A program made the position numbers and the translations under genes. A stretch of DNA of 64,000 nucleotides from Chrysomallon squamiferum (Eukaryota > Mollusca > Gastropoda > Neomphalida > Peltospiridae). The notes beneath the pieces are model-generated. The model saw only the letters and a program-made list of their open reading frames with translations. It did not search any database and had not been told where the DNA came from. Positions 6,954-63,503 of the stretch are shown here, in pieces. Every line of letters begins with the position of its first letter. Position 1 is the stretch's first letter. The stretch lies in NCBI GenBank assembly GCA_012295275.1, contig CM022678.1:928894-992893 (forward strand), in the 5' to 3' direction.

Positions 6954-7058
6954 TGATGAAAACATTACATTCATAAATTGTGTTACAACAATAATTTATG
7001 ACACAAATGATTAAAAATATAAATATGTATAAATGTATAAAGTAAGTATTTACTACAG

Positions 7059-39465: not shown

Positions 39466-39531
39466 CAGTTATATAATTATATCCTTTTTGTGTAGAACAG
39501 GAATAAAATACGTTTGATACACGTCGACCTG
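39466..39531 (-). CDS. Microexon 1 (nearest the NTPase exon)
   Basis: 66 nt; core FYSCSTQKGYNY. One of the most diverged forms; acceptor CACAG and donor GTAAG intact. Its phase 1 donor fits the acceptor of the copy C exon at 38012. Confidence 0.65.
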
Positions 39532-39959
39532 CTGTGAAACAGAGTAAATACATTTTTATAATTCACAACTTCAATACACAATTTCTCAAAATTCTGAGAA
39601 TTAAATATAATTACTAAATGTATTTGCATTTTTTGAAACATGAACAAACTGTTTGTATCTATATTTAGACACATGACAGAATACAGTCTCACCTACATAC
39701 ACTATGTCTGTGTATGAATATATTTTCGTGAATGTCTGTGTAATGCATGTCTGCATGTATATGTGTCTGCATGTTTGTGTTCTGTGTATGTGCTAAGTGT
39801 AGCAACAGCTATATGTGATTATATGTACACTATGCATTTATGTGCACATTTCAACGTTACTCAGTTCACAGTTCGTGAGAGAAATATACAAATGACTTCT
39901 ATGTATTCAGTTATCTATTAAACATGTAGAGTAGAGAACACTTTCAGCATTTAACTTAC

Positions 39960-40025
39960 TGGTTGTGTAGTTATTTCCTATTTGTGTAGAACCGGAATGA
40001 GATTTATTTATTTGCTGTTCTCCTG
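39960..40025 (-). CDS. Microexon 2
   Basis: 66 nt; core SHSGSTQIGNNY after GEQQINK; splice sites intact. Confidence 0.68.
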
Positions 40026-40463
40026 CTGTGAAACAGAAAAAATACATTTTTATAATTCATAAATTCAAGGCATAATTTCCAAAACTGCAAAATCCGGAGA
40101 ATTAGATATAATTACTAAATATATTTCATTGTTTCAAAGAACAAAAAAACTGTTTTTATCTATATTCAGACATATGAGAGAAAACAGATTCAGATTCATA
40201 AACTGTGTCTCTGTCTGAATATATTTGCGTGTATGTCTGTGTAATGCATGTCTGCATGTATATTTGTGTGCGTGAATCTGTTCTTTTTACGTGCTGAGTG
40301 ATGGTACATGTATGTGTGTTTGTAGGCAACCAATATGTATTTAAGTGCACATTACTACCTTCCTTAGGTCACAGTTTCTTATAGAAAAATACTAATGACT
40401 ACTGTGTATTCTGTTATCTATTAGACAAGTGGTGAAGAGAAAAACGTTCAATTCTTAACTTAC

Positions 40464-40529
40464 AGGATATGTAGTTATTTCCTATGTGTACAGAACCGGA
40501 AGGAGATACAACTGAATCCTGTCCTCCTG
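40464..40529 (-). CDS. Microexon 3
   Basis: 66 nt; core SPSGSVHIGNNY after GGQDSVV; splice sites intact. The next unit to the right (near 40850) has lost its exon. Confidence 0.66.
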
Positions 40530-41160
40530 CTGTGAAACAGAGTAAATATATTTTTGTAATTCACAACTTTAATGCACAAATTGCGAAAATAATTTAAACT
40601 TAAAAATTCTGAAAATTAAATATAATTACTAAATGTAATAGCATTTCTTCAAACTCAAACAAACTGTTTTTATCTCCATTTAGACCTAAGAGAGAAAACC
40701 GTTTCCAGTGCCTACATTGTCTCTCTTTCTGAATATATTTGCGTGTATGTCGGTGTAATGCATGCCTGCATGTATATCTGTGTGCATGTATGTGTTCTTT
40801 GTATGTGATAAGTCATGGTAGAGGAATGCGAGTTTATGTATACTGTCACGTTTTAGTCTATATTTAGAGATATGTTAGCATGCAGATTTATATACATACT
40901 CTGTGTCTCTGTCTGAATATATGTGCGTGTATATCTGTGTAATGCATATCTGCATATATATTGTGCGCATGTACTTGTTCTATGAAAGTGCTCAGTGATT
41001 GTAGAGTATGTACGTCTATTTGTACCCAGTCTATGAATTTATGTTCATATTTATACGTTGCTCAGGTCACAGTTTGTGAGAGACAAATACTGATGACTAC
41101 TGTGTATTCTGTTATCTATTACACATGTAGAGAAGAGAAAACTTTCAAGTTTTAACTTAC

Positions 41161-41226
41161 CGGATTTGTAGATGTCTCTTATTTGTGTAGATCCGGAATG
41201 AGACACGTTTGGTTGCTGTCGTCCTT
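41161..41226 (-). CDS. Microexon 4
   Basis: 66 nt; core SHSGSTQIRDIY after GRQQPNV; acceptor TTCACAG, donor GTAAG. Exon and flanks are nearly the same as microexon 18, a 7.0-kb-spaced duplicate. Confidence 0.68.
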
Positions 41227-41671
41227 CTGTGAAGCAGACCAAATACGTTGTTACAACTGACAACTTCAATGCACAGTTTCTTAAAATATTTTAAACTGGT
41301 AAATTCGGACAATTAGATATAATTTTTAAGTACATTAGACTTTTTTGGAACATGAAGAAACTGTTTTAAGCTATATTTAGAGATCTGTCGGCATTCAGAT
41401 TAATATACATACTCTGCATATCTGAAAATATTTGCGAATATGCATGTGTAATGCCTGCCTCCATATATATCGGTTTTGATGTATGTGTTTTTTGTATGTA
41501 CTAAGTGATGGTACAGGTAGGTACGTTTATACATACTCTGTCTATGCATTGATGTGCACGTTTCGACATTGCTCAGACCAAAGTGTGGTATAGAAAAGTA
41601 CTAATGACTACTGTGTTTTCTTTTACCGATTAAACATCACGTGAATAGGAAACTTCAAGCTTTTAACTTAC

Positions 41672-41731
41672 TGGAAACATATTTATCTCCTATTTGAGAA
41701 GAACCCCAATGAGATACATCTGATTGTCCTG
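41672..41731 (-). CDS. Microexon 5 (60 nt)
   Basis: Two codons shorter in the first part; core SHWGSSQIGDKY; phase kept; splice sites intact. Confidence 0.65.
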
Positions 41732-42012
41732 CTGTGAAACAGAGTAAATAATTTTTTATAATTCACAACTTTAATTCACAATTTCTCAAAATATTTGAAA
41801 CTGCAAAATTCTAAGAATTAGATTATTTACTCAATGTATTAGTATTTTTTGAAACAGAAAAAAACAATCTGAATATTTGCGTGTGTAGAGGTATATATGT
41901 TTGTATGTTCACATATGTTCACAGTCTGTGCTAGACAAATACTGATGACTACTATATATTCTGTTATCTATTAGACATGTAGAGAAGACAAAACTTTCAG
42001 CTTTTTACTCAC

Positions 42013-42078
42013 TGGATTCACTGTTATCTCCCATCTGAGTAGTACCGGAGTGAGATACATTTGGTTCCTGTTGTCCTC
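42013..42078 (-). CDS. Microexon 6
   Basis: 66 nt; core SHSGTTQMGDNS after GQQEPNV; donor is GTGAG rather than GTAAG. Confidence 0.67.
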
Positions 42079-42521
42079 CTGTGAAACAGAGAAAATACAT
42101 ATTTATAATTCAGATCTTCAATGCAGAATTTCTAAAACTATTTTTAACTGTAAAATTCTCAGAAGTAGTCAAAATTACTAAACGTATTAGCATTTTTGAA
42201 ACATAAAAAACCTGTTTTTATCCATATCTACAGAAATTTTAGGATGCAGGTTCCCATACATGCATTCTGTCTCTGAATATATTTTCGAGTATATCTGTGT
42301 AATGTATGACTACATATATATTTGTGTGCATGTATGTGTTCTTTGTATACGCTCAGTGATGGCAGAGATACGTATGTTTATATGTACCCTATCTAAGTAT
42401 TTATGTGCACATTTCTAGGTTGCTCAGATCACGGTTTGTGAGAGGAAAATACTAATGACTGTTATGTATTCTGTTATCTATTAAACATCTAGAGAAGACA
42501 AAACTTTCAATATTTACTTAC

Positions 42522-42587
42522 CGGATTTGTAGTTATCTCCTATTTGTATAGAACCAGAATGAGACAGGTTTAATTCCTGTTTTCCTG
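42522..42587 (-). CDS. Microexon 7
   Basis: 66 nt; core SHSGSIQIGDNY after GKQELNL. The Ile before Gln gives IQIGDN, the form closest to a RHIM core. Confidence 0.68.
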
Positions 42588-43018
42588 CTGTGAAACAAAG
42601 TAAATACATTTTCATGATTCACAACTTCAGTGCACAATTTCTGAACTTATTTTAAAGTGCAAAATTCTGGGAAATAGATATAATTATCAAATTTATTAGC
42701 CTTTATTGAAACATACAAACATGTTTAATCTATATTTAGAGATATGTCACCATACAGATTAACATCCATGCACTGTGTCTATAAATATATTTGTGTATAT
42801 CTGTGTTTTATATGCCTACATATATATGTATGTAATCTTTATATGTGCTAAGTAATGGTACAGGTAGGTACGTTTATACATACTCTGTCTATGCATTGAT
42901 GTGCACGTTTCGACATTGCTCAGATCACAGTGTGGTATAGAAAAGTACTAATGACTGCTGTGTTTTCTTTTACCGATTAAATATGTAGTGACGAGAACAC
43001 TTTCAGCTTTTTACTTAC

Positions 43019-43084
43019 TTGATTCATAGTTATCTCCTATATGTGAAGAACCGGAGTGAGATACATTTGATTCCTGTTGTCCTT
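43019..43084 (-). CDS. Microexon 8
   Basis: 66 nt; core SHSGSSHIGDNY after GQQESNV; splice sites intact. Confidence 0.67.
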
Positions 43085-43522
43085 CTGTGAAAGACAGTAA
43101 ATACATTTTTATAATTCGCAACTTCAATTCACAATTTCTAAAAATATGTTTATCTGCAAAATTCTCAAAATAGTCGTAATTACTAAATGTATTAGCATTT
43201 CTTGAAACATGAAACCCCGTTTTTATCCATATTTAGAGAAATGTTAGAATGCAGGTTACTATACATACACTGTGTCTGAATATATTTGCGTGTTTATCTG
43301 AATAATGCATGACTGCATATATATTTGTGTGCATGTATATTTTCTTTTTATGTGCTCAGTAATGGTAGAGGTATGTATGTTTATGTGTAACCTATCTGTT
43401 TTTATGTGCACATTTCTATGCTGTTCAGGTCATAGTTTGTGAGACAAAAATACTAATGTCTACTTTGTATTCTGATATCTATTAGACATCTAGAGAAGAC
43501 AAAACTTTCAGTTTTAACTTAC

Positions 43523-43588
43523 CAGATTTGTAGTTATCTCCTATTTGTATTGATCCGGAATGAGATACGTCTGCTTTCTGTTGTCCTG
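43523..43588 (-). CDS. Microexon 9
   Basis: 66 nt; core SHSGSIQIGDNY (IQIGDN form) after GQQKADV; acceptor TTTTACAG. Confidence 0.68.
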
Positions 43589-44010
43589 CTGTAAAACAGA
43601 GAAAATACATTGTTACATTTAACAACTTTAGCGCAGAATTTCTGAACTTATTTTAAACTGCAAAATTCTGAGAATTAGATATAATAAATAAATGTGTTAG
43701 CATTTTTGGAAATACAAACAAACTGTTTTTATCGATATTTAGACATATGATAGGATACAGTTTCAGACGTCTGCACTGTAACTCTGTGTAATGAATGTCT
43801 CCACATATATTTGTGTGCATGTACGTGCTCTTTGTATGTGCTAAGTGACGGTAGAGGTATGTATGTTTCCATGTACCCTATCTGTGTATTTATGTGCACA
43901 TTTCTACGTTGGTCAGGTCACAGTGTGGATAGCAAAATACTGAAGACTTCTGTGTTTTCTATTATCTATTAAACTTGAAGTGAAGAGAAAACTTTCAGTT
44001 CTTAACTTAC

Positions 44011-44076
44011 TAGACTTATAGTTATTTCCTACTTGCATACATCTGGAATGAGATCCGTTTGATTGCTGTCGTCCTG
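44011..44076 (-). CDS. Microexon 10
   Basis: 66 nt; core SHSRCMQVGNNY after GRQQSNG; splice sites intact. Confidence 0.66.
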
Positions 44077-44516
44077 CTGTGAAAAACAGTATATACATTT
44101 TTATAATTGACATCTTCTATGAACAATTTCTGAAAATAGTTTTAACTGCAAGATTATGAGAATTAGATATAATTACTAAAAGTATTAGAATTCTTTGAAA
44201 CGTAAAGAAACTGTTTGAATCTATAATCTATATGTCAGCATGCAGATTAACATACAGACAGTGTGTCTCTGACGATATGTGCTGTATGTCTGTGAATGGA
44301 TGCCTGTATATATATTTGTGTGGATGTGTCTCTTGATTATATGTGCTAAGTGATGGTAGAGGTATGTATCTTTATGTGGACCCAGTCTATGTATTGATGT
44401 GCCTGTTTCTACGCTTCTGAGATCACAGTGTGGGATAGAATAACACTAATGACTACTGTGTTTTCTTTTACAGGTTAAACATGTTGTGCATAGGAAACTT
44501 CGGGGTTTTTACTTCC

Positions 44517-44582
44517 TGGGAAAATAGTTATCTCCTTTTTGAGTAGAACCGGAATGAGAGACGTTTGGCTCCTGTTGTCCTG
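44517..44582 (-). pseudogene. Microexon 11, donor lost
   Basis: 66 nt; core SHSGSTQKGDNY. The donor reads GGAAG instead of GTAAG (+ strand ACTTCC at 44511-44516), so the exon should be skipped or mis-spliced; the frame is open. Confidence 0.65.
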
Positions 44583-44848
44583 CTGTGAGACAGAGTAAAT
44601 ACACTTTTATAATTCACAACTTCAACGCACATCTGTGTAATGCATGCCTGCATAGATATTTGTGTGCATGTTTGTTTTCTTTGTATGTGCTCAGTGACGT
44701 AGCGCTTTATACGTTTATATGCTCCCAATCTATATATTTATGTCAACATTCCTACGTTGCTCAGGTCACAGCTTGTTAGACAAAAATATCAATGACTACT
44801 ATGTATTCTGTTTCTATGTATTCTGATAACTTTCAATGTTTAACTTAC

Positions 44849-44914
44849 CGGATTTGTATTTATCTCCTTTTTGTGTAGATCCGGAATGAGATACGTTTGA
44901 TTGCTGTCGTCCTG
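44849..44914 (-). CDS. Microexon 12
   Basis: 66 nt; core SHSGSTQKGDKY after GRQQSNV; acceptor TTTCATAG. Confidence 0.67.
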
Positions 44915-45322
44915 CTATGAAAGAGAGTAAATACATTTTTATGATTCACATCTTCAATACCCAATTTCTGAAAATATTCTTAACTGCAATATTCTCCAGA
45001 TTCGACATAATTACTAAATGTATTGGCATTTCTTGAAACATAAAAGAATAAAATTGAATCTAATTTTGGAGACACTGTGTCTCAATGTATTTGCGTCTGT
45101 GTAATTCAGGCTAGCATATCTATGTGTGTTGATGTATGTGTTCTTTGTATGTACTAAGTGATAATACAGGTATGCTTGTTTATATTACCGTGTCTATGCA
45201 TTGATATGCCTGCTTTACGTTGCTGAGAACAATGTGGGACAGAAAAATGCTAATGACTGTTGTGTTTTCTTTTATCGATTAAACATGTAGAGAAGAGAAA
45301 AAAGTTTGAGCTTTTAACTTAC

Positions 45323-45367
45323 TGTCAGTAGATCCGGAATGAGATACGTTTGATTGTTGTTGTCCTG
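45323..45367 (-). CDS. Microexon 13 (45 nt)
   Basis: A 21-nt in-frame loss removes the QIGDN core, leaving SHSGST then D; both splice sites and phase are kept. The next unit to the right (near 45795) lacks an exon. Confidence 0.6.
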
Positions 45368-46146: not shown

Positions 46147-46212
46147 CGGATTTGTAGTTCTCTCTTATTTGTGTAGAACCGGAAAGAGATACGTTTGATT
46201 GCTGTCGTCCTG
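46147..46212 (-). CDS. Microexon 14
   Basis: 66 nt; core SLSGSTQIRENY after GRQQSNV; acceptor ATACCACAG. Confidence 0.66.
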
Positions 46213-48641: not shown

Positions 48642-48707
48642 TTAATATGTAGTTATCTCCTATTTTAGTAGAACCGGAATGAAATACTTTTGATTGCTGT
48701 TGTCCTG
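48642..48707 (-). pseudogene. Microexon 19, donor lost
   Basis: 66 nt; core FHSGSTKIGDNY. The donor reads TTAAG in place of GTAAG, so it should not splice normally; the frame is open. Confidence 0.63.
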
Positions 48708-49127
48708 CTGTGAGACAGAGTAAATACATTTTATAATTCACAACTATTGAAAATGTCTCAAGATATTTGAAAGTGCAAAATTCTAAGAATTAGATATAAT
48801 TATTAAATGTATTAGTACTTTTTGAAACAGAAAAAAACCCTGTTTTTTGACAATATTTTGAGATACGTTAGCATGGAGATTGACATATATACACTGTGTC
48901 TCTGTCTGAATATATTTGCGTTTATATCTTAGAAACACATGTATGTGGTTTTTGTTTGGTCTAAGTGATGTAGAGGTGTGTTAGTTTATATGTACCTATC
49001 TATGAATTTAATTGCACATTTCTACGTTGCTCAGACGAGAGTTTGTGAAAGAATAAGACTAATGACTATTATATATTCTGTTTTCTATTAAACACGTAGA
49101 GTAGAGAAATCTTTCAATGTTACTTAC

Positions 49128-49193
49128 CGGATTTGTATTTATCTCCTTTTTGTGTAGAACCGGAATGAGATACGTTTGATTCCTGTCGTCCTG
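49128..49193 (-). CDS. Microexon 20
   Basis: 66 nt; core SHSGSTQKGDKY after GRQESNV; splice sites intact. Confidence 0.67.
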
Positions 49194-49644
49194 CTGTGAA
49201 ACAGAATAAATATATTTTTACAATTCACAACTTAAATGTACCATTTCTGAAAATATTTAAAGTTCAAAATTCTGAGAATTAGTCATAACTAGTAAATGTA
49301 TTAGCATTTATTGAACAGTAAAGAAACTGTTTTATTTTATATTCACAGATATGTCAGCAGGTAGATTAACCTACATATACAGTGTGTCTGAATACATTTG
49401 CATATATGTCTGTGTAATGCATATATATATATATATATGTATGCGTGTGTGTGTGTGTGTGTCGATGTATGTGCTCTTTATAATGTCGTAAGTGATGGTA
49501 GAGGTATGTATGTTTATATTACCGTTTCTATGCATTGACATTGCTCAGTTCACAGTGAGGAATATAAAAATGCTTATGACTACTATATTTTCTTTTACCG
49601 AATAAACATGTACTGAAGTTAAAAATTATCTGCTGTTAACTTAC

Positions 49645-49710
49645 CGGATTTCTTGTTATCTCCTATCTGAGTAGATCCGGAATGAGACAAGTTTGATTCC
49701 TGTTGTCCTG
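49645..49710 (-). CDS. Microexon 21
   Basis: 66 nt; core SHSGSTQIGDNK after GQQESNL. It sits at the left edge of the 6.5-kb duplication; its counterpart is microexon 34, different in the left part and identical to the right. Confidence 0.68.
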
Positions 49711-50158
49711 CTGTAAAACAGAGAAAATACATTTTTATAATTCACAACTTCAATGCACAATTTCTGAAAATATTTTAACTGGAAAATTCTCTGAATTCGA
49801 TATAATTATTAAATGAATTAACACTTTTTAAAACATAATAAACCGATTTTTTATCCATATTTAGAAATATATTAGCATGCAGATTGACATACATACACTG
49901 TTTCGAAGTCTGAATATATTTGCGTGTATGTCAGTGTAATGTATGTCTGCATATATATTTTTGTCCATGTACGTGTTCTTCGTATGTGCTCAGAGATGGT
50001 AGATGTATGTATGTTTATATGTACCCTAACTACGTATTGATGTGCACATATCTACCTTGTTCAGGTCACAGTTGTGAGACAAAAATACTAATGAATACTA
50101 TGTATTCTTATATCTATTAGATATGTAGTGAAGAGAAAACTTTCAATTTTTATCTTAC

Positions 50159-50224
50159 CGGATTTGTAGTCGTCTCCTACGTGTTTAGAACCGGAATGAG
50201 ATGCGTTTGATTGCTGTCGTCCTC
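50159..50224 (-). CDS. Microexon 22
   Basis: 66 nt; core SHSGSKHVGDDY after GRQQSNA. Identical twin at microexon 35. Confidence 0.68.
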
Positions 50225-50670
50225 CTATGAAAGATAGTAAATACATTTTCATAAATCACAACTTCAATGCACTATTTTTGACAATATTTTTAACTGCAAA
50301 ATTCTGAGAATTAGATATAATTTCTAAATGTATTAGCCTTTTCTTGAAACACAAATAAACCGTTTTCATCTATATTAAAAGATATGTCATCACGCATATA
50401 AACATACATACACTGTTTCTCACAATATATATTGCGTATATGTTTGTGTAATGAGTGTCTTCATATATATTTGTGCGCATGTATTTGTTCTTAGTATGTG
50501 CTCAGTGTTGGTATAGGTATGTACGTTTATATGCATCCTATCTATGAATTTATGTTCACATTTCTACGTGGCTCGGGTAACAGTTTGTGAGAGAAAAATA
50601 CTAATGACTATTGTGTATTCTGATATGTGTTAGACATGTAGTGAAGAGAAAACGTTCAGTTTTAACTTAC

Positions 50671-50733
50671 CAGATTTGTAGTTGTCTCCTATTTGTATTG
50701 ATCCGGAATGAGATACGTCTGCTTTCTGTCCTG
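50671..50733 (-). CDS. Microexon 23 (63 nt)
   Basis: One codon shorter (GQKADV); core SHSGSIQIGDNY. Twin at microexon 36. Confidence 0.68.
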
Positions 50734-51161
50734 CTGTAAAACAGAGAAAATACATTGCTACAATTCACAACTTCATTGCACAATTTCTTAAAATATTTTA
50801 AACTGTTAAATTTTGAGAATTAGATATAATTATTAAATGTATTAGATTTTTTTGAAATATGAAGAAAATGTTTTAATATATATTTACAGATATGTCAGCA
50901 TGTAGATTAACATAAATACACTGCGTATCTGAAAATATTTGCGTATGTGTCTGTGTAATTTATTCCTCCATATATATGCTATTGGATGTATCCCTATTTT
51001 TCTGTGTGTGCTAAGTGATTTTAGAGGTATGTATGTTTATCTTACCCTGTCTGTGCATTGATGTGCCTGTTTCTACGCTGGTCTGATCACAGTGTGGTAT
51101 AGAAAAATACTAATGACTACTAGACATCTAGTAAAGAGAACACTTTCAATTTTTAACTTAC

Positions 51162-51226
51162 CGGATTTGTAATTATCTCCTATTTGTGTAGATCCGAATG
51201 AGATCCGTTTGATTGCTGTCGTCCTG
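51162..51226 (-). pseudogene. Microexon 24, 65 nt with a 1-nt loss
   Basis: One G is missing in the CCGG of the SGS codons (CCGAATG on the + strand), which would shift the frame. The twin, microexon 37, has the full 66 nt, so this may be an assembly error. Confidence 0.6.
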
Positions 51227-51671
51227 CAGTAAAATAAAATAAATACATTGTTACAATTCACAACTTCAGTGCACGATTTCTGAAATGTTTTTTAAACTGC
51301 AACATTCTCAGAATTAGATATAATTACTAAATGTTTTCCATTTTCAGAAACATAAAAACCCTATTTTAATCCATATTTAGAGATATGTTAGCATGCTGTT
51401 TGACATATATACACTGTGTCTCTGAATATATTTTCGTGTATAGCCTTGTAATGTATGACTGAAGTTATATCTGTGTGCATGTATGTGTTCTTTGTATGTG
51501 CTAAGTGGTGGTAGAGGTATGCATATTTATATGTACCCTATCTATGTATTTATGAGCTCATTTCTACGTTGATCAGGTCGCAGTTTGTGAGAGAAAAGTA
51601 CTAATGACTACCATGTATTTTGTTATGTATAAGGCAAGTAGAAAAGAGAAAAGTTTAAATTTTCAACTTAC

Positions 51672-51737
51672 CGGATTTGTAGTTATCTCCTATTTGTGTA
51701 GCTTCGGACTGAGATCCGTTTGATTGCTGTTGACCTG
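51672..51737 (-). CDS. Microexon 25
   Basis: 66 nt; core SQSEATQIGDNY after GQQQSNG; acceptor TTATAACAG. Twin at microexon 38. Confidence 0.67.
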
Positions 51738-52178
51738 CTGTTATAACAGAGCGCATATATTTTTATAGTTCACAATTCAATGTAAATTTCTGAACATATT
51801 TTTAACTCCAAAATTCTGAGAATTATATATAATTCCTAAATGTAAGAGCATTTTCTGAAACATAAAGAAACAGTTTTAATATATATTTGGAATTACGTCA
51901 GGATGCAGATTAACATACGTGCTCAGTGTCTCTGAATATATTTGGGTGTATGTGTGTGTAACGCATGCTCATTTATATATGCGTGAATGTGTGTGTTAGT
52001 TTAGTGTGTAAAGTGATGGTAGCGGCATGTATGTTTGTATGTACGGTGTTTATGCATTGTGTGCTCGTTTCTACGTCGCTCAGATCACAGTGTGGGATAG
52101 AAACATACTAATCACTACTGTGTTTGGTTTTACCAATTAAATATGTAGTAACGAGAAAACTTCGAGCTTTTGACTTAC

Positions 52179-52244
52179 TCGATACAAAGCTATGTCCTAT
52201 TTGAGTAGAACCGGAATGAGATACATTTGATTCCTGAGGTCCTG
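52179..52244 (-). CDS. Microexon 26
   Basis: 66 nt; core SHSGSTQIGHSF after GPQESNV. Twin at microexon 39. Confidence 0.67.
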
Positions 52245-52692
52245 CTGTGAAACAGAGTTAATTCATTTTTATAATTCACAAATTCAATACACAATTTCTC
52301 AAGATATTTTAAACTGCAAGTTTCTCAGCATTACATATAATTATTAAATGTATTAGCATTTTTTTAAATATAAAAATATTGTTTTTATCCATATTTAGAG
52401 ACATGTTAGGATGCAGATTGACATACACACATTCTGTCTCTGTCTGAATATATTTACGTGTGTATCTGAGTAATTCATGTCTGCATATATATTTGTGTGC
52501 ATGTATGTTTTCTTTGTTTGTTATAAGTGATGGTAGAGGTATGTATGTTTATGTGTACCCTATATATGTATTCGTGAGCACATTTCTACATTGTCCGGGT
52601 CACAGTTTGTGAGATAAGAATACTAATGAATACTACGTTTTCTGTTATGCATTAGACATGTAGAGAAGAGAAAACTGTCAATTTTAACTTAC

Positions 52693-52758
52693 CTGATGTG
52701 TAGTTATCACCTATTCGTGTAGAACTGGAATGAGATTCGTTTGATTGCCGTTGACCTC
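52693..52758 (-). CDS. Microexon 27
   Basis: 66 nt; core SHSSSTRIGDNY after GQRQSNE; acceptor GTCACAG. Twin at microexon 40. Confidence 0.67.
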
Positions 52759-52986
52759 CTGTGACACACAGTAAATAAATATTTATATAATTCACAATTT
52801 CAGTTCACAATTTCTGAAAATATTTTAAACTGCAAAAATCTGAGAATTAGATATAATTATTAAATGTATTAGCATTTTCTGAAAGAAACAAAAACCTTCT
52901 GTTATATATTTAGAGATATGTCAGCATTCAGATTAACATGCATACACGCCTATATGTCTGTGTAATGCATGCCTTCATATATATAC

Positions 52987-52996
<10 letters not shown>

Positions 52997-53050
<54 letters not shown>
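52997..53050. repeat. (TG)n microsatellite in an array intron
   Basis: About 50 bp of TG; its duplicate is at about 59497-59551 and is 2 bp longer. Confidence 0.9.
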
Positions 53051-53242
53051 TGTATCTATTCTTTGTATGTGCTAAGTGATGGTACAGGTAGGTACGTTTA
53101 TACATACTCTGTCTATGCATTGATGTGCACGTTTCGACATTGCTCAGATCACAGTGTGGTATAGAAAAGTACTAATGACTGCTGTGTTTTCTTTTACCGA
53201 TTAAATATGTAGTGACGAGAACACTTTGAGATTTGTACTTAC

Positions 53243-53307
53243 TCGATACAGAGTTATCTCCTAGCTGTGTAGAACCGAATGAGATACCTTCGACTCCTGT
53301 TGTCCTG
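53243..53307 (-). pseudogene. Microexon 28, 65 nt with a 1-nt loss
   Basis: The same G is missing as in microexon 24 (CCGAATG). The twin, microexon 41, is intact with core SHSGSTQLGDNS. Confidence 0.6.
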
Positions 53308-53748
53308 CTATGAAACAGAGTAAATACATTTTGTAATTCACAACTTCAATTCACAATTTCTCAAAATATTTTAAACTATAAAATTCTGAGAGTTAGTTAT
53401 AATAACTAAATGTACTAGCTTTATCTGAAACACAAAAAACTATTTTTCTCTATATTTAAAAAGATGTTAGCATGCAGATTGACATACATACATTGTGTCT
53501 CTCAATATATTCGCGTGTATCTCTGTGTAATGCATGTGTGCATATATGTGTGTGTGGATGAATCTGTTCTTTGTATGTGCTAACTGATCGTAGAGGTATA
53601 TATGTTTATATTACCGTGCCTATGCATTTATGTGCATGTTTCTATGTTGATCAGATCACAGTGTGAATAGTACAACACTAATGACTACTACGTATTCTTT
53701 TATTTATTACACATGCAGAGAAGAGAAAACTGTGAATTGTTCATTTAC

Positions 53749-53814
53749 CAGATACGCAGTTATCTCCTATGTTTGTAGAACCGGAATGATATACGTTTGA
53801 CACCTGTTCTCCTT
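53749..53814 (-). CDS. Microexon 29
   Basis: 66 nt; core YHSGSTNIGDNC after GEQVSNV; donor GTAAAT. Twin at microexon 42. Confidence 0.67.
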
Positions 53815-54261
53815 CTGTGAAACAGAGTAAATATATTATTATAATTCACAATTTGATTCCACAGTTTCTGAAAAATGTTTAAGTGCACAATTCTCAGAAT
53901 TAGACATAAGTACCAAATGTATTAGCAATTTATGAAACACAAATAAACTGTTTTCACCTATATTTAGAGATATGTCAGCATAGAGATTAAAATACATAGA
54001 CTGTGTCTGTGTCTGAATATTTTATGTGTATATATGTGTAATGCATGTCTGCAAATATATTTGTGTGCATGTACGTGTTCTTTGTATGTGCTAAGTGGTG
54101 GTAGAGGTATGTATGTTTATATGTACCCTATCTATGTATTTATGTGCACATTTCTACGTTGCTCGGGTCACAGTTGTGGTAGAAAAATACTAATGACTAC
54201 TGTGTATTCTGTTATCTATTAAACAAGTGGTGATGAGAAAAACGTTCAATTCTTAACTTAC

Positions 54262-54327
54262 CGGATATGAAGTTATCCCCTATTTGTGTAGAACCGGAAT
54301 GAGATACCTTTAATTCCTGTTTTCCTG
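54262..54327 (-). CDS. Microexon 30
   Basis: 66 nt; core SHSGSTQIGDNF after GKQELKV. Twin at microexon 43. Confidence 0.67.
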
Positions 54328-54707
54328 CTGTGAAACAAAGAAAATATATTTTTATAATTCACAACTTCAATGAACAATTTCTGAAAATATTTTAAACTGC
54401 AAAATTCTGAGAATTAGATATAATCAATAAATATATTAACATTTTTCGAAAGATAAAGAAACTGTTTTAATCTCTATTTAGATATACATCAGAATGCAGA
54501 TTAACATACATACACTGCCTCTCTGAATATATATGCGTATATGTCTGTTGAATGTATGGCTGCATATATATGTATCCTATCTATGTATTTATGTTCACAT
54601 TCCTAAGTTGCTCAGGTCATAGATTGAGATAGAAAAATACTGACTACTATGTATTCTGTCATCTATTAAACATGTAGAGAAGACAAAACTTTTAGTATTT
54701 AACCTAC

Positions 54708-54773
54708 TGGATATGTAGTTATCTCCTATTTGTGTAAAACCGGAATGAGGTACTTTTGATTGCAGCTCTCCTG
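54708..54773 (-). CDS. Microexon 31
   Basis: 66 nt; core PHSGFTQIGDNY after GELQSKV; donor GTAGG. Twin at microexon 44, from which it differs at three residues. Confidence 0.67.
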
Positions 54774-55174
54774 CTGTGAAAGACAGTAAATACATTTTTA
54801 TAATTCACAAGTTCAATTGACAATTTCTGAAAATATTTTTAAGTGCAAAATTTTCAGAATTAGACATAAATGTCAAATGTATTAGCATTTTCTGTAACAT
54901 AAATAAACCGTTTTTATCAATATTTAAAAATATCTTAGCATGCATTTTGAAACACGTACATTGTGTCTCTGTCTGAATATATTTGCATGTATATGTGTAA
55001 TGCATGTCTGTATATATATTTATGTGCATGCATGTGTTCTTTTTATGTTCTCAGTGATGGTATGTTCTGTTATATGGATGAATTTAAGAGCACATTTCTA
55101 CGTAGCTCAGGTCACAGTTTGTGAGAGAAATATACTGATGACTACTATGTATTCCGTTATGTATTAGACATAGT

Positions 55175-55212
55175 AGTTACGGAATGAGATATGTTTAATT
55201 CCTGTTCTCCTG
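55175..55212 (-). pseudogene. Microexon 32, truncated
   Basis: Only the first half is left (GEQELNISHS-like), the donor side is deleted and the acceptor CACAG has become CACCG. Confidence 0.6.
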
Positions 55213-55650
55213 CGGTGAAACATAGTAAATATATTTTTGTAATTCACAAATTCAATTTACAATTTCTGAAAATATTTTAACCTGCAAAATTTTGAGAATT
55301 AGATATAATTATTAAAACGATTAGGATTTTTGGAAACATAAAGATACCCTATTAATTGATATTTAGAGATATGTAATTATGTAAATTAACATATATACAC
55401 TGTGTCTCTATTTGAACATATTTACGTATATGTCTGTGCAATCTTTGCCTGCATATATAACTGTGTAGATGTATCTATCCTTTGTTCGTGCTAAGTAATG
55501 GTACAGGTATTTGTGTTGATATGTACCACCTCTATGTATTTCTGTGTCGTTTCTACATTGTGCAGGTCACAGTGTGGGATAGAAAAATACTAATGACTAC
55601 TGTGTTTTCTTTCAATTATTAAACATATGATTAGAAAACTTTTAACTTAC

Positions 55651-55716
55651 TGGATACAAAATGATCTCCTATTTGAGCAGAACCGGAATGAGATACATTT
55701 GGTTCCTGTTGTCCTT
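55651..55716 (-). CDS. Microexon 33
   Basis: 66 nt; core SHSGSAQIGDHF after GQQEPNV; splice sites intact. Confidence 0.67.
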
Positions 55717-56144
55717 CTGTGAAACAGAGTAAAAACATCTTTATAATTCACAAATTCAACTCACAATTTATGAAAATATTCTTAAGTGCAAAATTCTTAC
55801 AGTTAGTCATAATTACTAAATTTATTAGTTTTTTTTTCTTTTTAAACATAAAAAAATCTGGTTTTTTCTATATTTAGAAATATATTAACATGCAGATTGA
55901 CATACATAAACTGTGTCTATATCTGATAATACATGTCTGCATATGTATTTGTGTGCATGTAAGTGTTCTTTGTACCTGCTCAGTTATGGTAGAGATATGT
56001 ATGTTTATATGTACCCTATCAATATTTATGTGCACATTTCACGTTGCTCAGGTAACAGTTTAAGAGAGAAAAATAGTAATGACTATTGTGTATTCTGACA
56101 TCTATGAGACGTAGTGAAGAGAAAACTTTCTGTTTCTAACTTAC

Positions 56145-56210
56145 CGGATTTGTAGTTGTCTCCTATTTGTGTAGATCCGGAATGAGACAAGTTTGCTTTC
56201 TGTTGTCCTG
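56145..56210 (-). CDS. Microexon 34
   Basis: 66 nt; core SHSGSTQIGDNY after GQQKANL; marks the junction between the two 6.5-kb copies. Confidence 0.68.
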
Positions 56211-56658
56211 CTGTAAAACAGAGAAAATACATTTTTATAATTCACAACTTCAATGCACAATTTCTGAAAATATTTTAACTGGAAAATTCTCTGAATTCGA
56301 TATAATTATTAAATGAATTAACACTTTTTAAAACATAATAAACCGATTTTTTATCCATATTTAGAAATATATTAGCATGCAGATTGACATACATACACTG
56401 TTTCGAAGTCTGAATATATTTGCGTGTATGTCAGTGTAATGTATGTCTGCATATATATTTTTGTCCATGTACGTGTTCTTCGTATGTGCTCAGAGATGGT
56501 AGATGTATGTATGTTTATATGTACCCTAACTACGTATTGATGTGCACATATCTACCTTGTTCAGGTCACAGTTGTGAGACAAAAATACTAATGAATACTA
56601 TGTATTCTTATATCTATTAGATATGTAGTGAAGAGAAAACTTTCAATTTTTATCTTAC

Positions 56659-56724
56659 CGGATTTGTAGTCGTCTCCTACGTGTTTAGAACCGGAATGAG
56701 ATGCGTTTGATTGCTGTCGTCCTC
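56659..56724 (-). CDS. Microexon 35
   Basis: 66 nt; core SHSGSKHVGDDY; twin of microexon 22. Confidence 0.68.
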
Positions 56725-57170
56725 CTATGAAAGATAGTAAATACATTTTCATAAATCACAACTTCAATGCACTATTTTTGACAATATTTTTAACTGCAAA
56801 ATTCTGAGAATTAGATATAATTTCTAAATGTATTAGCTTTTTCTTGAAACACAAATACACCGTTTTCATCTATATTAAAAGATATGTCATCACGCATATA
56901 AACATACATACACTGTTTCTCTCAATATATATTGCGTATATGTTTGTGTAATGAGTGTCTTCATATATATTTGTGCGCATGTATTTGTTCTTAGTATGTG
57001 CTCAGTGTTGGTACAAGTATGTACGTTTATATGCATCCTATCTATGAATTTATGTTCACATTTCTACGTGGCTCGTGTAACAGTTTGTGAGAGAAAAATA
57101 CTAATGACTATTGTGTATTCTGATATGTGTTAGACATGTAGTGAAGAGAAAACGTTCAGTTTTAACTTAC

Positions 57171-57233
57171 CAGATTTGTAGTTGTCTCCTATTTGTATTG
57201 ATCCGGAATGAGATACGTCTGCTTTCTGTCCTG
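57171..57233 (-). CDS. Microexon 36 (63 nt)
   Basis: Core SHSGSIQIGDNY; twin of microexon 23. Confidence 0.68.
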
Positions 57234-57660
57234 CTGTAAAACAGAGAAAATACATTGCTACAATTCACAACTTCATTGCACAATTTCTTAAAATATTTTA
57301 AACTGTTAAATTTTGAGAATTAGATATAATTATTAAATGTATTAGATTTTTTTGAAATATGAAGAAAATGTTTTAATATATATTTACAGATATGTCAGCA
57401 TGTAGATTAACATAAATACACTGCGTATCTGAAAATATTTGCGTATGTGTCTGTGTAATTTATTCCTCCATATATATGCTATTGGATGTATCCCTTTTTT
57501 CTGTGTGTGCTAAGTGATTTTAGAGGTATGTATGTTTATCTTACCCTGTCTGTGCATTGATGTGCCTGTTTCTACGCTGGTCTGATCACAGTGTGGTATA
57601 GAAAAATACTAATGACTACTAGACATCTAGTAAAGAGAACACTTTCAATTTTTAACTTAC

Positions 57661-57726
57661 CGGATTTGTAATTATCTCCTATTTGTGTAGATCCGGAATG
57701 AGATCCGTTTGATTGCTGTCGTCCTG
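57661..57726 (-). CDS. Microexon 37
   Basis: 66 nt; core SHSGSTQIGDNY after GRQQSNG; intact twin of the frameshifted microexon 24. Confidence 0.68.
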
Positions 57727-58171
57727 CAGTAAAATAAAATAAATACATTGTTACAATTCACAACTTCAGTGCACGATTTCTGAAATGTTTTTAAACTGCA
57801 ACATTCTCAGAATTAGATATAATTACTAAATGTTTTCCATTTTCAGAAACATAAAAAACCCTATTTTAATCCATATTTAGAGATATGTTAGCATGCTGTT
57901 TGACATATATACACTGTGTCTCTGAATATATTTTCGTGTATAGCCTTGTAATGTATGACTGAAGTTATATCTGTGTGCATGTATGTGTTCTTTGTATGTG
58001 CTAAGTGGTGGTAGAGGTATGCATATTTATATGTACCCTATCTATGTATTTATGAGCTCATTTCTACGTTGATCAGGTCGCAGTTTGTGAGAGAAAAGTA
58101 CTAATGACTACCATGTATTTTGTTATGTATAAGGCAAGTAGAAAAGAGAAAAGTTTAAATTTTCAACTTAC

Positions 58172-58237
58172 CGGATTTGTAGTTATCTCCTATTTGTGTA
58201 GCTTCGGACTGAGATCCGTTTGATTGCTGTTGACCTG
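58172..58237 (-). CDS. Microexon 38
   Basis: 66 nt; core SQSEATQIGDNY; twin of microexon 25. Confidence 0.67.
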
Positions 58238-58678
58238 CTGTTATAACAGAGCGCATATATTTTTATAGTTCACAATTCAATGTAAATTTCTGAACATATT
58301 TTTAACTCCAAAATTCTGAGAATTATATATAATTCCTAAATGTAAGAGCATTTTCTGAAACATAAAGAAACAGTTTTAATATATATTTGGAATTACGTCA
58401 GGATGCAGATTAACATACGTGCTCAGTGTCTCTGAATATATTTGGGTGTATGTGTGTGTAACGCATGCTCATTTATATATGCGTGAATGTGTGTGTTAGT
58501 TTAGTGTGTAAAGTGATGGTAGCGGCATGTATGTTTGTATGTACGGTGTTTATGCATTGTGTGCTCGTTTCTACGTCGCTCAGATCACAGTGTGGGATAG
58601 AAACATACTAATCACTACTGTGTTTGGTTTTACCAATTAAATATGTAGTAACGAGAAAACTTCGAGCTTTTGACTTAC

Positions 58679-58744
58679 TCGATACAAAGCTATGTCCTAT
58701 TTGAGTAGAACCGGAATGAGATACATTTGATTCCTGAGGTCCTG
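58679..58744 (-). CDS. Microexon 39
   Basis: 66 nt; core SHSGSTQIGHSF; twin of microexon 26. Confidence 0.67.
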
Positions 58745-59193
58745 CTGTGAAACAGAGTTAATTCATTTTTATAATTCACAAATTCAATACACAATTTCTC
58801 AAGATATTTTAAACTGCAAGTTTCTCAGCATTACATATAATTATTAAATGTATTAGCATTTTTTTAAATATAAAAATATTGTTTTTATCCATATTTAGAG
58901 ACATGTTAGGATGCAGATTGACATACACACATTCTGTCTCTGTCTGAATATATTTACGTGTGTATCTGAGTAATTCATGTCTGCATATATATTTGTGTGC
59001 ATGTATGTTTTCTTTGTTTGTTATAAGTGATGGTAGAGGTATGTATGTTTATGTGTACCCTATATATGTATTCGTGAGCACATTTCTACATTGTCCGGGT
59101 CACAGTTTGTGAGATAAGAATACTAATGAATACTACGTTTTCTGTTATGCATTAGACATGTAGAGAAGAGAAAACTGTCAATTTTTAACTTAC

Positions 59194-59259
59194 CTGATGT
59201 GTAGTTATCACCTATTCGTGTAGAACTGGAATGAGATTCGTTTGATTGCCGTTGACCTC
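59194..59259 (-). CDS. Microexon 40
   Basis: 66 nt; core SHSSSTRIGDNY; twin of microexon 27. Confidence 0.67.
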
Positions 59260-59487
59260 CTGTGACACACAGTAAATAAATATTTATATAATTCACAATT
59301 TCAGTTCACAATTTCTGAAAATATTTTAAACTGCAAAAATCTGAGAATTAGATATAATTATTAAATGTATTAGCATTTTCTGAAAGAAACAAAAACCTTC
59401 TGTTATATATTTAGAGATATGTCAGCATTCAGATTAACATGCATACACGCCTATATGTCTGTGTAATGCATGCCTTCATATATATAC

Positions 59488-59553
<66 letters not shown>

Positions 59554-59745
59554 TGTATCTATTCTTTGTATGTGCTAAGTGATGGTACAGGTAGGTACGT
59601 TTATACATACTCTGTCTATGCATTGATGTGCACGTTTCGACATTGCTCAGATCACAGTGTGGTATAGAAAAGTACTAATGACTGCTGTGTTTTCTTTTAC
59701 CGATTAAATATGTAGTGACGAGAACACTTTGAGATTTGTACTTAC

Positions 59746-59811
59746 TCGATACAGAGTTATCTCCTAGCTGTGTAGAACCGGAATGAGATACCTTCGACTC
59801 CTGTTGTCCTG
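59746..59811 (-). CDS. Microexon 41
   Basis: 66 nt; core SHSGSTQLGDNS after GQQESKV; intact twin of microexon 28. Confidence 0.67.
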
Positions 59812-60253
59812 CTATGAAACAGAGTAAATACATTTTTGTAATTCACAACTTCAATTCACAATTTCTCAAAATATTTTAAACTATAAAATTCTGAGAGTTA
59901 GTTATAATAACTAAATGTACTAGCTTTATCTGAAACACAAAAAACTATTTTTCTCTATATTTAAAAAGATGTTAGCATGCAGATTGACATACATACATTG
60001 TGTCTCTCAATATATTCGCGTGTATCTCTGTGTAATGCATGTGTGCATATATGTGTGTGTGGATGAATCTGTTCTTTGTATGTGCTAACTGATCGTAGAG
60101 GTATATATGTTTATATTACCGTGCCTATGCATTTATGTGCATGTTTCTATGTTGATCAGATCACAGTGTGAATAGTACAACACTAATGACTACTACGTAT
60201 TCTTTTATTTATTACACATGCAGAGAAGAGAAAACTGTGAATTGTTCATTTAC

Positions 60254-60319
60254 CAGATACGCAGTTATCTCCTATGTTTGTAGAACCGGAATGATATACG
60301 TTTGACACCTGTTCTCCTT
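60254..60319 (-). CDS. Microexon 42
   Basis: 66 nt; core YHSGSTNIGDNC; twin of microexon 29. Confidence 0.67.
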
Positions 60320-60768
60320 CTGTGAAACAGAGTAAATATATTATTATAATTCACAATTTGATTCCACAGTTTCTGAAAAAATGTTTAAGTGCACAATTCT
60401 CAGAATTAGACATAAGTACCAAATGTATTAGCAATTTATGAAACACAAATAAACTGTTTTCACCTATATTTAGAGATATGTCAGCATAGAGATTAAAATA
60501 CATAGACTGTGTCTGTGTCTGAATATTTTTATGTGTATATATGTGTAATGCATGTCTGCAAATATATTTGTGTGCATGTACGTGTTCTTTGTATGTGCTA
60601 AGTGGTGGTAGAGGTATGTATGTTTATATGTACCCTATCTATGTATTTATGTGCACATTTCTACGTTGCTCGGGTCACAGTTGTGGTAGAAAAATACTAA
60701 TGACTACTGTGTATTCTGTTATCTATTAAACAAGTGGTGATGAGAAAAACGTTCAATTCTTAACTTAC

Positions 60769-60834
60769 CGGATATGAAGTTATCCCCTATTTGTGTAGAA
60801 CCGGAATGAGATACCTTTAATTCCTGTTTTCCTG
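60769..60834 (-). CDS. Microexon 43
   Basis: 66 nt; core SHSGSTQIGDNF; twin of microexon 30. Confidence 0.67.
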
Positions 60835-61214
60835 CTGTGAAACAAAGAAAATATATTTTTATAATTCACAACTTCAATGAACAATTTCTGAAAATATTTT
60901 AAACTGCAAAATTCTGAGAATTAGATATAATCAATAAATATATTAACATTTTTCGAAAGATAAAGAAACTGTTTTAATCTCTATTTAGATATACATCAGA
61001 ATGCAGATTAACATACATACACTGCCTCTCTGAATATATATGCGTATATGTCTGTTGAATGTATGGCTGCATATATATGTATCCTATCTATGTATTTATG
61101 TTCACATTCCTAAGTTGCTCAGGTCATAGATTGAGATAGAAAAATACTGACTACTATGTATTCTGTCATCTATTAAACATGTAGAGAAGACAAAACTTTT
61201 AGTATTTAACCTAC

Positions 61215-61280
61215 TGGATATGTAGTTATCTCCTATTTGTGTAGAACCGGAATGAGGTACTTTTGATTGCTGCTCTCCTG
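61215..61280 (-). CDS. Microexon 44
   Basis: 66 nt; core PHSGSTQIGDNY after GEQQSKV; twin of microexon 31. The next unit to the right (near 61557) lacks an exon. Confidence 0.67.
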
Positions 61281-61870
61281 CTGTGAAAGACAGTAAATAC
61301 ATTTTTATAATTCACAAGTTCAATTGACAATTTCTGAAAATATTTTTAAGTGCAAAATTTTCCGAATTAGACATAAATGTCAAATGTATTAGCATTTTCT
61401 GTAACATAAATAAACCGTTTTTATCAATATTTAAAAATATCTTAGCATGCATTTTGAAACACGTACATTGTGTCTCTGTCTGAATATATTTGCATGTATA
61501 TGTGTAATGCATGTCTGTATATATATTTATGTGCATCCATATGTTCTTTGTATGTTCAGAGTAAATAATTTTTATAATTCACAACTTCAATGCCCAGTTT
61601 TTGAAAATATTTTAAACTATAGAATTCTGAGAATTAGATATAATTATTAAATTTATTATTATTTTTCGAAACGTAAAGAAACTGTTTTAATCTATATTTA
61701 CAGACATGTCAGCGTGCAGATTAACACACATACACTGTTATTTCTATATGTAACTTTCTTTATCTATATGTAGAGATATGACAGCCTGCAGTTTAATATA
61801 TATACACCGTGTCTCTGTTTGAATATATTTGTGTGCATGTCTGTGTATGGATGTCTGCATATACATTTAC

Positions 61871-62080
61871 AGGTATGTATGTTTATATGTACTCTGTCTA
61901 TGTATGTTTATATGTACTCTGTCTATATATGTTTATATGTACTGTGTTTGTATATGTCTATATGTACTGTGTCTACGTATGTTTATATGTACTGTGTCTA
62001 TGTATGGTTATATGTACTGTGTCTATATATGTTTGTACATACTGTGTCTATATATGTTTATATGTACTGTGTCTCTGTAG
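61871..62080. repeat. 25-bp minisatellite in an array intron
   Basis: About eight units of TATGTTTATATGTACTGTGT plus CTATG, with small changes. It sits in a segment repeated at about 63650-64000 with a 1880-bp shift. Confidence 0.85.
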
Positions 62081-62202
62081 TTATGTGCACGTTTGTATGT
62101 TTTTCAGGTCACAGTGTGTGGCGGATAATTACTAATCACTACTATGTATTCTGTTATCAATTAAACAGGTAGACAAGAGAAAACATTTAGTTTTTGACTT
62201 AC

Positions 62203-62268
62203 TGGATTCCCAATTTTCTCCTATTTGTGTAGAACCGGAATAAAATGGGTTTGATAGCTGATGTCTGG
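62203..62268 (-). CDS. Microexon 45
   Basis: 66 nt; core FYSGSTQIGENW after RHQLSNP. Intermediate in character between the main array and the acidic exons to the right. Confidence 0.66.
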
Positions 62269-62438
62269 CTGTGAAGCAGATTAAACACATATTTATAATT
62301 CACAACTTCAATGCACAGTTTCCGAAAATATTTTTAACAGCAAAATTTAGTGTGGGATAGAAAGATAGTAATAATTATTGTGTTTTCTTTTTCCTGATAA
62401 ACATGTAGAGAAGAGAAAACTTTCAGTTTTTAACTTAC

Positions 62439-62504
62439 CGGATTCCCAAATTTCTCCTATTTGTGTAGAACTGGAATGAAATGGGTTTGATAGCTGATGT
62501 CTGA
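62439..62504 (-). CDS. Microexon 46
   Basis: 66 nt; core FHSSSTQIGEIW after RHQLSNP. Only 170 bp of intron separate it from microexon 45, the shortest spacing in the array. Confidence 0.66.
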
Positions 62505-62876
62505 CTGTGAAACAGATTAAACACATATTTATAATTCACAACTTCAATACACAATTTCTGAAAGACTTTTTACGCTACAGATTCTGAATTAATTCTTAAA
62601 TGTAGTAGCACTTTTTGAAGCAGGAAACACTGTTTTTAATCGATATGTAGAGATATGACAGCATGTTCTGCTTGAATATATCTGAGTGTATGTGTATATG
62701 TATATTTGTGCATATGTATCGATTCTGTGTTTCTGCTAAGTGTAGATACAGGTCTGTGTGATTATATGTATTGTGTCTATACATAGAGTGTGTGACGTAA
62801 AAATACTAATCACAACTATGTATTCTGGTATCTATTAAACATGTAGACACGAGAAAACTTTTAGTTTTTAGCTTAC

Positions 62877-62939
62877 CGGATTCTTCGTTGTCTTCTGTTT
62901 CAGTAGAATCAGAATCAGATTCTTCTGCTGGGGACTTTC
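62877..62939 (-). CDS. Microexon 47 (63 nt, acidic)
   Basis: Acceptor CATTCTAG; reads KSPAEESDSDSTETEDNEES; donor GTAAG; phase 1-1. It aligns with the main repeat (SDSDSTETEDNEES against SHSGSTQIGDNYKS) but the Gln and Gly of the core are replaced by acidic or small polar residues. Confidence 0.65.
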
Positions 62940-63440
62940 CTAGAATGAAAAATAGTGAATACATTTTTATAATTCGTAATTTCTTTATGCCTAATTTCTC
63001 CAAAAAATGTTTGACCTACAACATTCTGAGAGTTATATACTACTGTAAAATGATCTAGTACTTTTTGAAAGAGAAAAACGAATATTTTTATCTATATGTA
63101 GAGATATGACAGCATACAGTTTAACATATATAGACTGCGTCTCTGTTTGAATATATTTATGTGTATGTTTGTGTAATGCATGTGTACATGCGTATGTGTG
63201 TGTGTATGTTTCTGTCCTGTGCTAAGTCTGGGTACAGGTATAGGTTCATATGTACTGTGTCTATGCATGTTTATATTTACTGTGTCTATGTTTGTTTATA
63301 TTTACTGTGTCTATGTATTTATGTGCACGTTTCTATTTGTTCAAGTCACAGTTTTGTGAGAGAAAAATACTAATCACTACTATGAATTCTGTTATCAATG
63401 AAACAGGTAGACCAGAGAAAAGTTTCAGCTTTTAACTTAC

Positions 63441-63503
63441 TGGATTCGGGGTCATCTTCTGTTTGATTAGAATCGGAATCAGATACATCTGCTGGTACCG
63501 GAT
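63441..63503 (-). CDS. Microexon 48 (63 nt, acidic)
   Basis: Acceptor TCACTACAG; reads PVPADVSDSDSNQTEDDPES; donor GTAAG; phase 1-1. Rightmost exon seen, so probably nearest the N terminus. Confidence 0.65.

Follow-up and report, generated by a model that had tools for sequence, protein, structure and literature searches.

The stretch of the Chrysomallon squamiferum genome analysed here, 64,000 nucleotides long and hereafter called the window (contig C14, positions 928894-992893; genome searched, 404.6 Mb in 22 contigs), carries on its minus strand a long array of microexons. The array would form the 5' part of a gene, between an exon with a start codon (the ATG exon) and an exon for an nSTAND3 nucleoside triphosphatase (NTPase) followed by ankyrin repeats, and the product would be similar to a NOD-like receptor (NLR). 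Array copies were located with an nhmmer profile of the exon plus its flanks and then parsed for splice sites. The profile gives 60 matches between window coordinates 69764 and 39466; a copy beyond these 60 was not found at E ≤ 1 in 164 kb around the array (2.9 kb of it N). The in-window part, 39466-63503, holds 48 copies, in line with the figure of about 48 in an initial annotation of this DNA; the array is nevertheless longer than it had proposed, running 5.7 kb beyond the window end with 12 of the 60 copies outside and a first exon base as far up as 69747. The exon form described at that time is borne out: 35 of the 48 are 66 nt long, five are 63, one is 60 and one is 45; the median spacing is 507 bp for a claimed period of about 510 bp (34 of 47 intervals measure 480-560 bp); and the intact exons are multiples of three read in phase 1-1. 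What had been under-reported is the number of broken copies in this interval, namely five. By script, 42 of the 48 are a multiple of three with AG..GT sites, or 43 if the copy at 42078 uses its gtgagt donor, and frame-intact copies in the whole array number 53 of 60, or 54 with the same donor. The typical exon is 66 nt long with the acceptor TTTCACAG, an NAGNAG form being present in 42 of 59 parsed copies and a GTAAG donor in 50 of 59. Exact copies are common, 47 of the 59 parsed exons being unique. As in a micro-exon gene, the segment consists mostly of very small symmetric exons.

The first bases of the 48 exons, all on the minus strand, lie at 63503, 62939, 62504, 62268, 61280, 60834, 60319, 59811, 59259, 58744, 58237, 57723, 57233, 56724, 56210, 55716, 55209 (broken), 54773, 54327, 53814, 53307 (broken), 52758, 52244, 51737, 51223 (broken), 50733, 50224, 49710, 49193, ~48707 (broken), 48236, 47716, 47222, 46710, 46212, 45367 (45 nt), 44914, 44582 (broken), 44076, 43588, 43084, 42587, 42078, 41731 (60 nt), 41226, 40529, 40025 and 39531.

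The next coding exon by phase lies at 35461-38012 on the minus strand and is entered in phase 1 (CATACAG/AA). Its open frame, 38025-35461, matches the Pfam families nSTAND3 (E = 7e-25) and Ank_2 (E = 3e-25); the initial annotation had left the gene without a name, and this exon can now be given as an nSTAND3 NTPase with ankyrin repeats. As in STAND proteins, the Walker A/B residues G42, G45, G47, K48, D92 and D93 are invariant in ten sequences, i.e. the window gene and nine relatives, and superstructure repeats, here the ankyrins, follow C-terminally. The nearest nSTAND3 protein is from another gastropod, Gigantopelta aegis, at 35% identity. The exon is open for 851 codons, up to a stop at 35460 inside the ankyrins where the ankyrin frame breaks; a further fragment, ankyrin-like by eye in its translated open reading frame, lies in another frame just downstream (35236-35418, minus strand). 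Between the array and the NTPase exon, the segment 38628-38713 (minus strand) is probably the remnant of a linker exon akin to the microexon unit. Three copies of it were aligned: those of the window gene and of one further C14 locus (C14b) are frame-broken, and that of the neighbouring gene, at ~129990 and thus beyond the window, reads open in phase 1-1.

The eight arrays, or parts of arrays, that were examined all have in common a 5' region with the ATG exon, ATG..G/GTAAGT, which codes MHEHSTVWKKQTWVHI and exits in phase 1; that of the window gene lies outside the window at 73006-72958 (minus strand). The ATG exon was found in nine copies, one of which precedes an nSTAND3 gene that has no array; ATG and donor are kept in five of the nine, including that of the window gene, and the frame or the donor is changed in three secondary ones. 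Because these phases fit, the ATG exon, any number of microexons and the NTPase exon can be joined in frame, and arm and NTPase could stand in one transcript. A candidate second 5' exon suggested by alignment was dropped in favour of the ATG exon, since its phase 0 exit puts stops into the microexons. Between the ATG exon and the array, in the 5' intron, there is also an insertion with an open frame (70763-71744, plus strand) that we take to be transposase-like, as we do a second one at 86498-87145 (plus strand); both lie outside the window.

At five loci the microexon unit precedes a coding exon. Apart from the window array, four sister arrays were read, one at C11:14.028-14.054 Mb with 48 matches and three on C14 with 10, 19 and 10 matches; frame-intact exons number 48 of 48 in the C11 array (36 of them unique) and 6, 13 and 5 in the three on C14. 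These C14 arrays (C14b, C14c and C14d) each precede nSTAND3 exons. The C11 array precedes a RING exon (E = 9e-12), which is entered in phase 1 behind a poor pyrimidine tract, and a Deltex C-terminal domain (E = 4e-27) follows downstream. Weak matches to the array profile (E = 0.2-1.8) occur on C15, C9 and C3, at places where the letters could not be read.

The microexons are predicted to be coding, a conclusion well supported by three tests: intact sites and lengths, frame-safe indels and the absence of stops. All 48 exons of the C11 array have AG..GT sites, a length of 66 or 63 nt and zero stops. Frame-changing indels affect none of these 48 exons, versus 15-31 of the 48 copies in 13 intron-only windows, and 3 of 59 exons in the window array, versus 16-32 of 59 in 12 intron-only windows (the one copy of the 60 whose donor was not parsed is left out of this comparison and of the identities below). 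Phase-1 stops are absent from the 37 (C11) and 41 (window array) exons of 66 nt, where free substitution predicts 11.1 and 15.9, numbers to be read knowing that the splice-site parser slightly disfavours stops; the other two frames contain stops in 24 and 37 of the 37 and in 38 and 27 of the 41. The segment of symmetric exons coding a 22-residue repeat that the initial annotation had deduced is thus well supported by phases, frame-safe indels and missing stops; variable splicing, which it had offered as an alternative, would be possible by phase. Its further statement, that exon sequence and frame are kept while introns drift, was not confirmed as to sequence, since base identity lies within the intron range. 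The mean pairwise exon identity is 0.747 (C11) and 0.716 (window array), compared with 0.67-0.79 and 0.65-0.79 in the intron-only windows, of which 3 of 13 and 6 of 12, respectively, are better kept than the exon. The comparison of nonsynonymous with synonymous change across exon copies that it had proposed as dN/dS, run here as pN/pS (proportions of nonsynonymous and synonymous differences), gave 1.43 for C11 and 1.00 for the window array, by a simple count that does not correct for mutation bias and that covers 66-nt exons only (37 of 48 and 41 of 60, of which 25 and 32 remain once duplicates are removed); clear protection is thus confined to frame and length. The best-kept residues are S11, S13 and N19, and codons 3, 5, 6, 8 and 21 vary, with pN > pS in the pooled exons.

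The array also contains a duplicated multi-exon block of ~6.4 kb on the minus strand, whose copies at 55171-61557 and 48666-55050 match exon by exon and align at 94.6% identity over 6444 columns. Because of such block duplication, and with many exons identical, the array copies are not independent of each other. Two of the broken exons have intact splice sites, one of 65 nt at 53243-53307 and one of 62 nt at 51162-51223 (both minus strand), and their duplicates at 59811 and 57723 are intact. The two breaks are the same one-base loss at CCGG, which could be a systematic sequencing error. Under complete exon inclusion these two exons would ruin the protein of the window gene; either they are skipped, or this gene copy is decaying, or the one-base losses are assembly errors. 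The block duplication, the broken exons and ankyrin frame of the window copy and the transposase-like insertion in the 5' intron would all suit a decaying, satellite-like repeat that had spread together with its exon and lost expression. This explanation appears very improbable given the C11 array, where all 48 exons are intact with zero frame-changing indels at ~25% divergence, and given the missing stops in both arrays. A transposable element or satellite as the whole story was rejected because the frame is protected and the unit recurs ahead of a coding exon at each of five loci.

From the five arrays, 147 matches gave 125 intact exons, 120 of at least 20 residues and 93 unique peptides. 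The consensus of 50 hand-chosen peptides is xGxQxxNxSHSGSTQIGDNYxS, from which position 20 drops out over all 93; the core SHSGSTQIGDN is the majority consensus across the five arrays, with no column at 90% or above. In 64 unique pooled 66-nt exons, S11 is kept in 57, S13 in 58, N19 in 53, and Q15, I16 and G17 in 48 each. When each of the 93 peptides is searched by itself in Pfam (24,736 families), the only matches are to HET-S (three, best E = 0.0064), Eplus_motif (two) and RHIM (one, E = 0.11), all below cut-off, versus zero matches for 93 shuffled peptides. The best HET-S peptide scores 16.8 bits, short of the cut-off for PF17108 (24.3 bits), none of the 93 reaches the cut-off for RHIM (PF12721), and none matches an NCBIfam family. 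Passages in PMC12881547 and PMC9444067 describe the RHIM as 18-22 residues with a tetrad (V/I)Q(V/I/L/C)G, and passages in PMC5485727 describe HET-s repeats of 21 residues with a partner motif at the NLR N-terminus; both names denote amyloid-signalling motifs, in one and the same class of length. The RHIM tetrad with its first position free occurs in 57 of the 125 intact exons; the partial fungal PP core GxxQxGxN occurs in 35 of the 93 peptides, and QxGxN in 42, versus a shuffled mean of 1.4.

Other Pfam matches below cut-off were set aside as composition-driven or due to chance, namely gerPA (E = 3e-4), NosD, EAD10, Flavodoxin_NdrI and MucBP, found with composites of several repeats, as were EAD10, HET-S and DUF4074, obtained once each with ten hand-written repeat peptides. 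A repeat composite searched against 5.8 billion proteins (best 7,999 candidates scored) gave one match (E = 3.5e-4, 23% identity, PF13306), which we judged unrelated, and the sequence matches in the PDB were antibody light chains, a single-chain variable fragment and a G-protein-coupled receptor construct only.

The composition of the repeat (S 19%, G 11%, Q 9% and N 8% over 99 unique intact exons) is in keeping with a long, mostly disordered spacer in an NLR-like protein, constitutively spliced, in which only length matters as in an entropic tether. Length and frame are indeed protected while residues are free to change, with pN/pS near 1 or more, and the broken exons of the window gene could merely mark a dying gene. 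A plain spacer would not account for a core that is mostly kept at S11, S13, N19, Q15, I16 and G17, however, and constitutive inclusion would let the exons at 53307 and 51223, frame-broken with good splice sites, ruin the protein; we regard the spacer as possible, though doubtful.

The vicinity of RHIM-type stretches to nSTAND3 exons in this genome is the main reason for preferring a signalling motif over such a spacer. The Pfam RHIM profile finds 11 weak matches in the whole genome (E = 0.37-7.5), two of them at cut-off; in a control, one of 14 other genomes gave a match, and none gave one above cut-off. The nSTAND3 query finds 92 matches in the genome, some of them pieces of one exon, mainly on C14, C11, C10, C4 and C3, and these were compared with the 11 of RHIM. 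Five of these 11, without exception on C10 (16.19-17.63 Mb), stand upstream of a same-strand nSTAND3 exon at distances of 660-8665 bp, where 0.012 would be expected under a 10 kb limit that was itself chosen after the matches were known; the corresponding controls give zero on the opposite strand and one downstream, and the other six RHIM matches have no nSTAND3 match downstream on their own strand. In some of the sister nSTAND3 genes, RHIM-type stretches thus appear to stand at the place that is taken by the array in the window gene. It may be added that nSTAND3-type exons are strongly expanded in this genome (26 of the 92 matches lie in open frames of at least 1500 codons), and that C3:1.603-1.625 Mb holds a cluster of three weak RHIM matches, all on the minus strand and away from any nSTAND3 match, which might be a further family of RHIM genes.

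The reading that we favour, at a probability of about 0.5, is that the array encodes the N-terminal, multivalent self-association or signalling arm of an NLR-like nSTAND3-ankyrin gene, with the number of motifs set by splicing and array length. The sequence itself shows the array and its phases, the coding constraint, the order of the domains, the sister arrays and the linkage of weak RHIM matches to nSTAND3 exons; we infer that the gene is transcribed and spliced with variable exon inclusion, that its repeats assemble and that its role is in immunity. The ATG exon would be joined to however many phase 1-1 microexons of 22 codons are used, and these in turn to the NTPase exon, each microexon contributing one S/G/Q/N-rich repeat with the mostly kept core. 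This core probably acts as do the short motifs of the RHIM/HET-s class, which mediate homotypic cross-beta interactions and stand N-terminally on fungal NLRs. Activation sensed by the ankyrins would cause the NTPase to oligomerise and so nucleate assembly of the arm, and other carriers of the same repeat, e.g. the C11 RING-Deltex ligase, might be recruited into the assembly. Array length, changing by unequal block exchange, would together with exon inclusion determine how many motifs there are and hence where the signalling threshold lies.

Several observations weigh against this reading. In the window gene 6-7 of 60 microexons and the ankyrin frame are broken, and for that reason the gene may be decaying; the ATG exon is damaged in four of its nine copies, including that of C11, where the ATG is lost; and pN/pS among exon copies is 1.0-1.4. 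Every motif score of the repeat is below its curated cut-off, the strict RHIM tetrad (V/I)-Q-(V/I/L/C)-G is found in 5 of 125 intact exons, the fungal PP core NxGxQxGxN in 0 of 93 peptides, and a HET-S search of the entire genome stays empty at E ≤ 10, so that we do not file the repeat as a RHIM or HET-s motif. Composites of several repeats match other families instead (gerPA, NosD, EAD10, Flavodoxin_NdrI and MucBP), also below cut-off, and the PDB sequence searches returned no RHIM or HET-s structure. None of the 11 genomic RHIM matches is an array exon, and the binomial value for their linkage to nSTAND3 (7e-13) understates the probability: the limit was set post hoc, the five linked matches, whose letters could not be read, all lie on C10 near paralogous genes, and both sets cluster.

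Since the window gene and the C11 ligase share the repeat, receptor and ligase could co-assemble. It is conceivable, though we put it forward only tentatively, that an NLR-like receptor and a RING-Deltex ligase in one animal genome share a tandem, multivalent signalling polymer of the RHIM/HET-s type, with splicing and array length tuning an amyloid-like nucleation threshold. If this were true, an animal family would link fungal NLR amyloid signalling with the RHIMs of vertebrate necroptosis, and would offer a natural dial for studying how far the switch point of immune signalosomes depends on motif valency. The C11 locus, with 48 of 48 microexons intact, is the clean place for testing this, although its ATG exon is damaged.

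Dscam-type clusters consist of tandemly duplicated exons in one gene and carry complementary docking and selector elements, and the initial annotation had likened the array to those of arthropods in logic, though not in homology. The array shares the tandem duplicated exons; beyond that the comparison is not supported, as minus-strand self-matches indicating docking/selector complementarity were absent at E ≤ 1e-3 from the two arrays tested (low-complexity filter on), and the exons give no sign of mutually exclusive choice and can be joined in series, in one phase. With so many exact exon copies, the choice of a single exon would make little sense. The same observations bear on a splice-variable immune diversification in which subsets of exons would confer receptor specificities, as in Dscam or the schistosome micro-exon genes. 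The symmetry of all intact exons in phase 1-1 would permit it, and the variable codons 3, 5, 6, 8 and 21 with their pooled pN > pS would fit it. Given the lack of docking/selector complementarity, the many exact duplicates and, by analogy with NLRs, a position of the repeats that would be on the signalling rather than the sensor side of the NTPase, we consider such diversification unlikely.

The exons of the titin PEVK segment are symmetric, and to our knowledge neither this segment nor the schistosome micro-exon genes are tied to a STAND NTPase. Titin PEVK is described as many small exons (PMC7274174) and schistosome micro-exon genes as having small symmetric exons that permit alternative splicing (PMC4350168); the array resembles both in its many small exons and the latter in their symmetry. 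The PEVK segment is a muscle spring. Passages in PMC5485727 and PMC9815663 describe, for fungal NLRs, a motif of ~20-28 residues at the N-terminus of STAND/NLR proteins with superstructure repeats such as ankyrin. The window gene resembles these (HET-s/HRAM, PP, sigma) in its short motif, predicted to stand N-terminally on a STAND protein with ankyrins, and in its sub-threshold HET-S matches; it differs in lacking the strict PP core and in copy number, the fungal motifs being described there as single, double or triple and the present ones reaching ~60, one per exon, in an animal and with an nSTAND3 NTPase. With RHIM proteins (RIPK1, RIPK3, ZBP1, TRIF) the repeat shares the 18-22 residue class and a Q-hydrophobic-G core, as outlined in passages of PMC9444067, and it departs from them in a first tetrad position that is mostly T and rarely V/I, in tandem multi-copy form and in that no kinase domain was found. 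In bivalves, proteins with TRADD-N are reported to be expanded and to combine it with STAND NTPases and ankyrins (PMC8195603). Among the matches listed in open-access literature, the combination of a microexon-repeat arm with nSTAND3 was not found.

Elsewhere in the window, at 11601-11961 on the plus strand, a J-domain-like gene (named by eye) has one of its short exons (DDVNKAYRRLAVLLHPDKS) in about three tandem copies, with a 132-bp period and a 93% match. Two long minisatellites occupy 5268-6955 and 8320-10405, the one with a 20-bp unit in ~85 copies and the other a 37-bp-based array.

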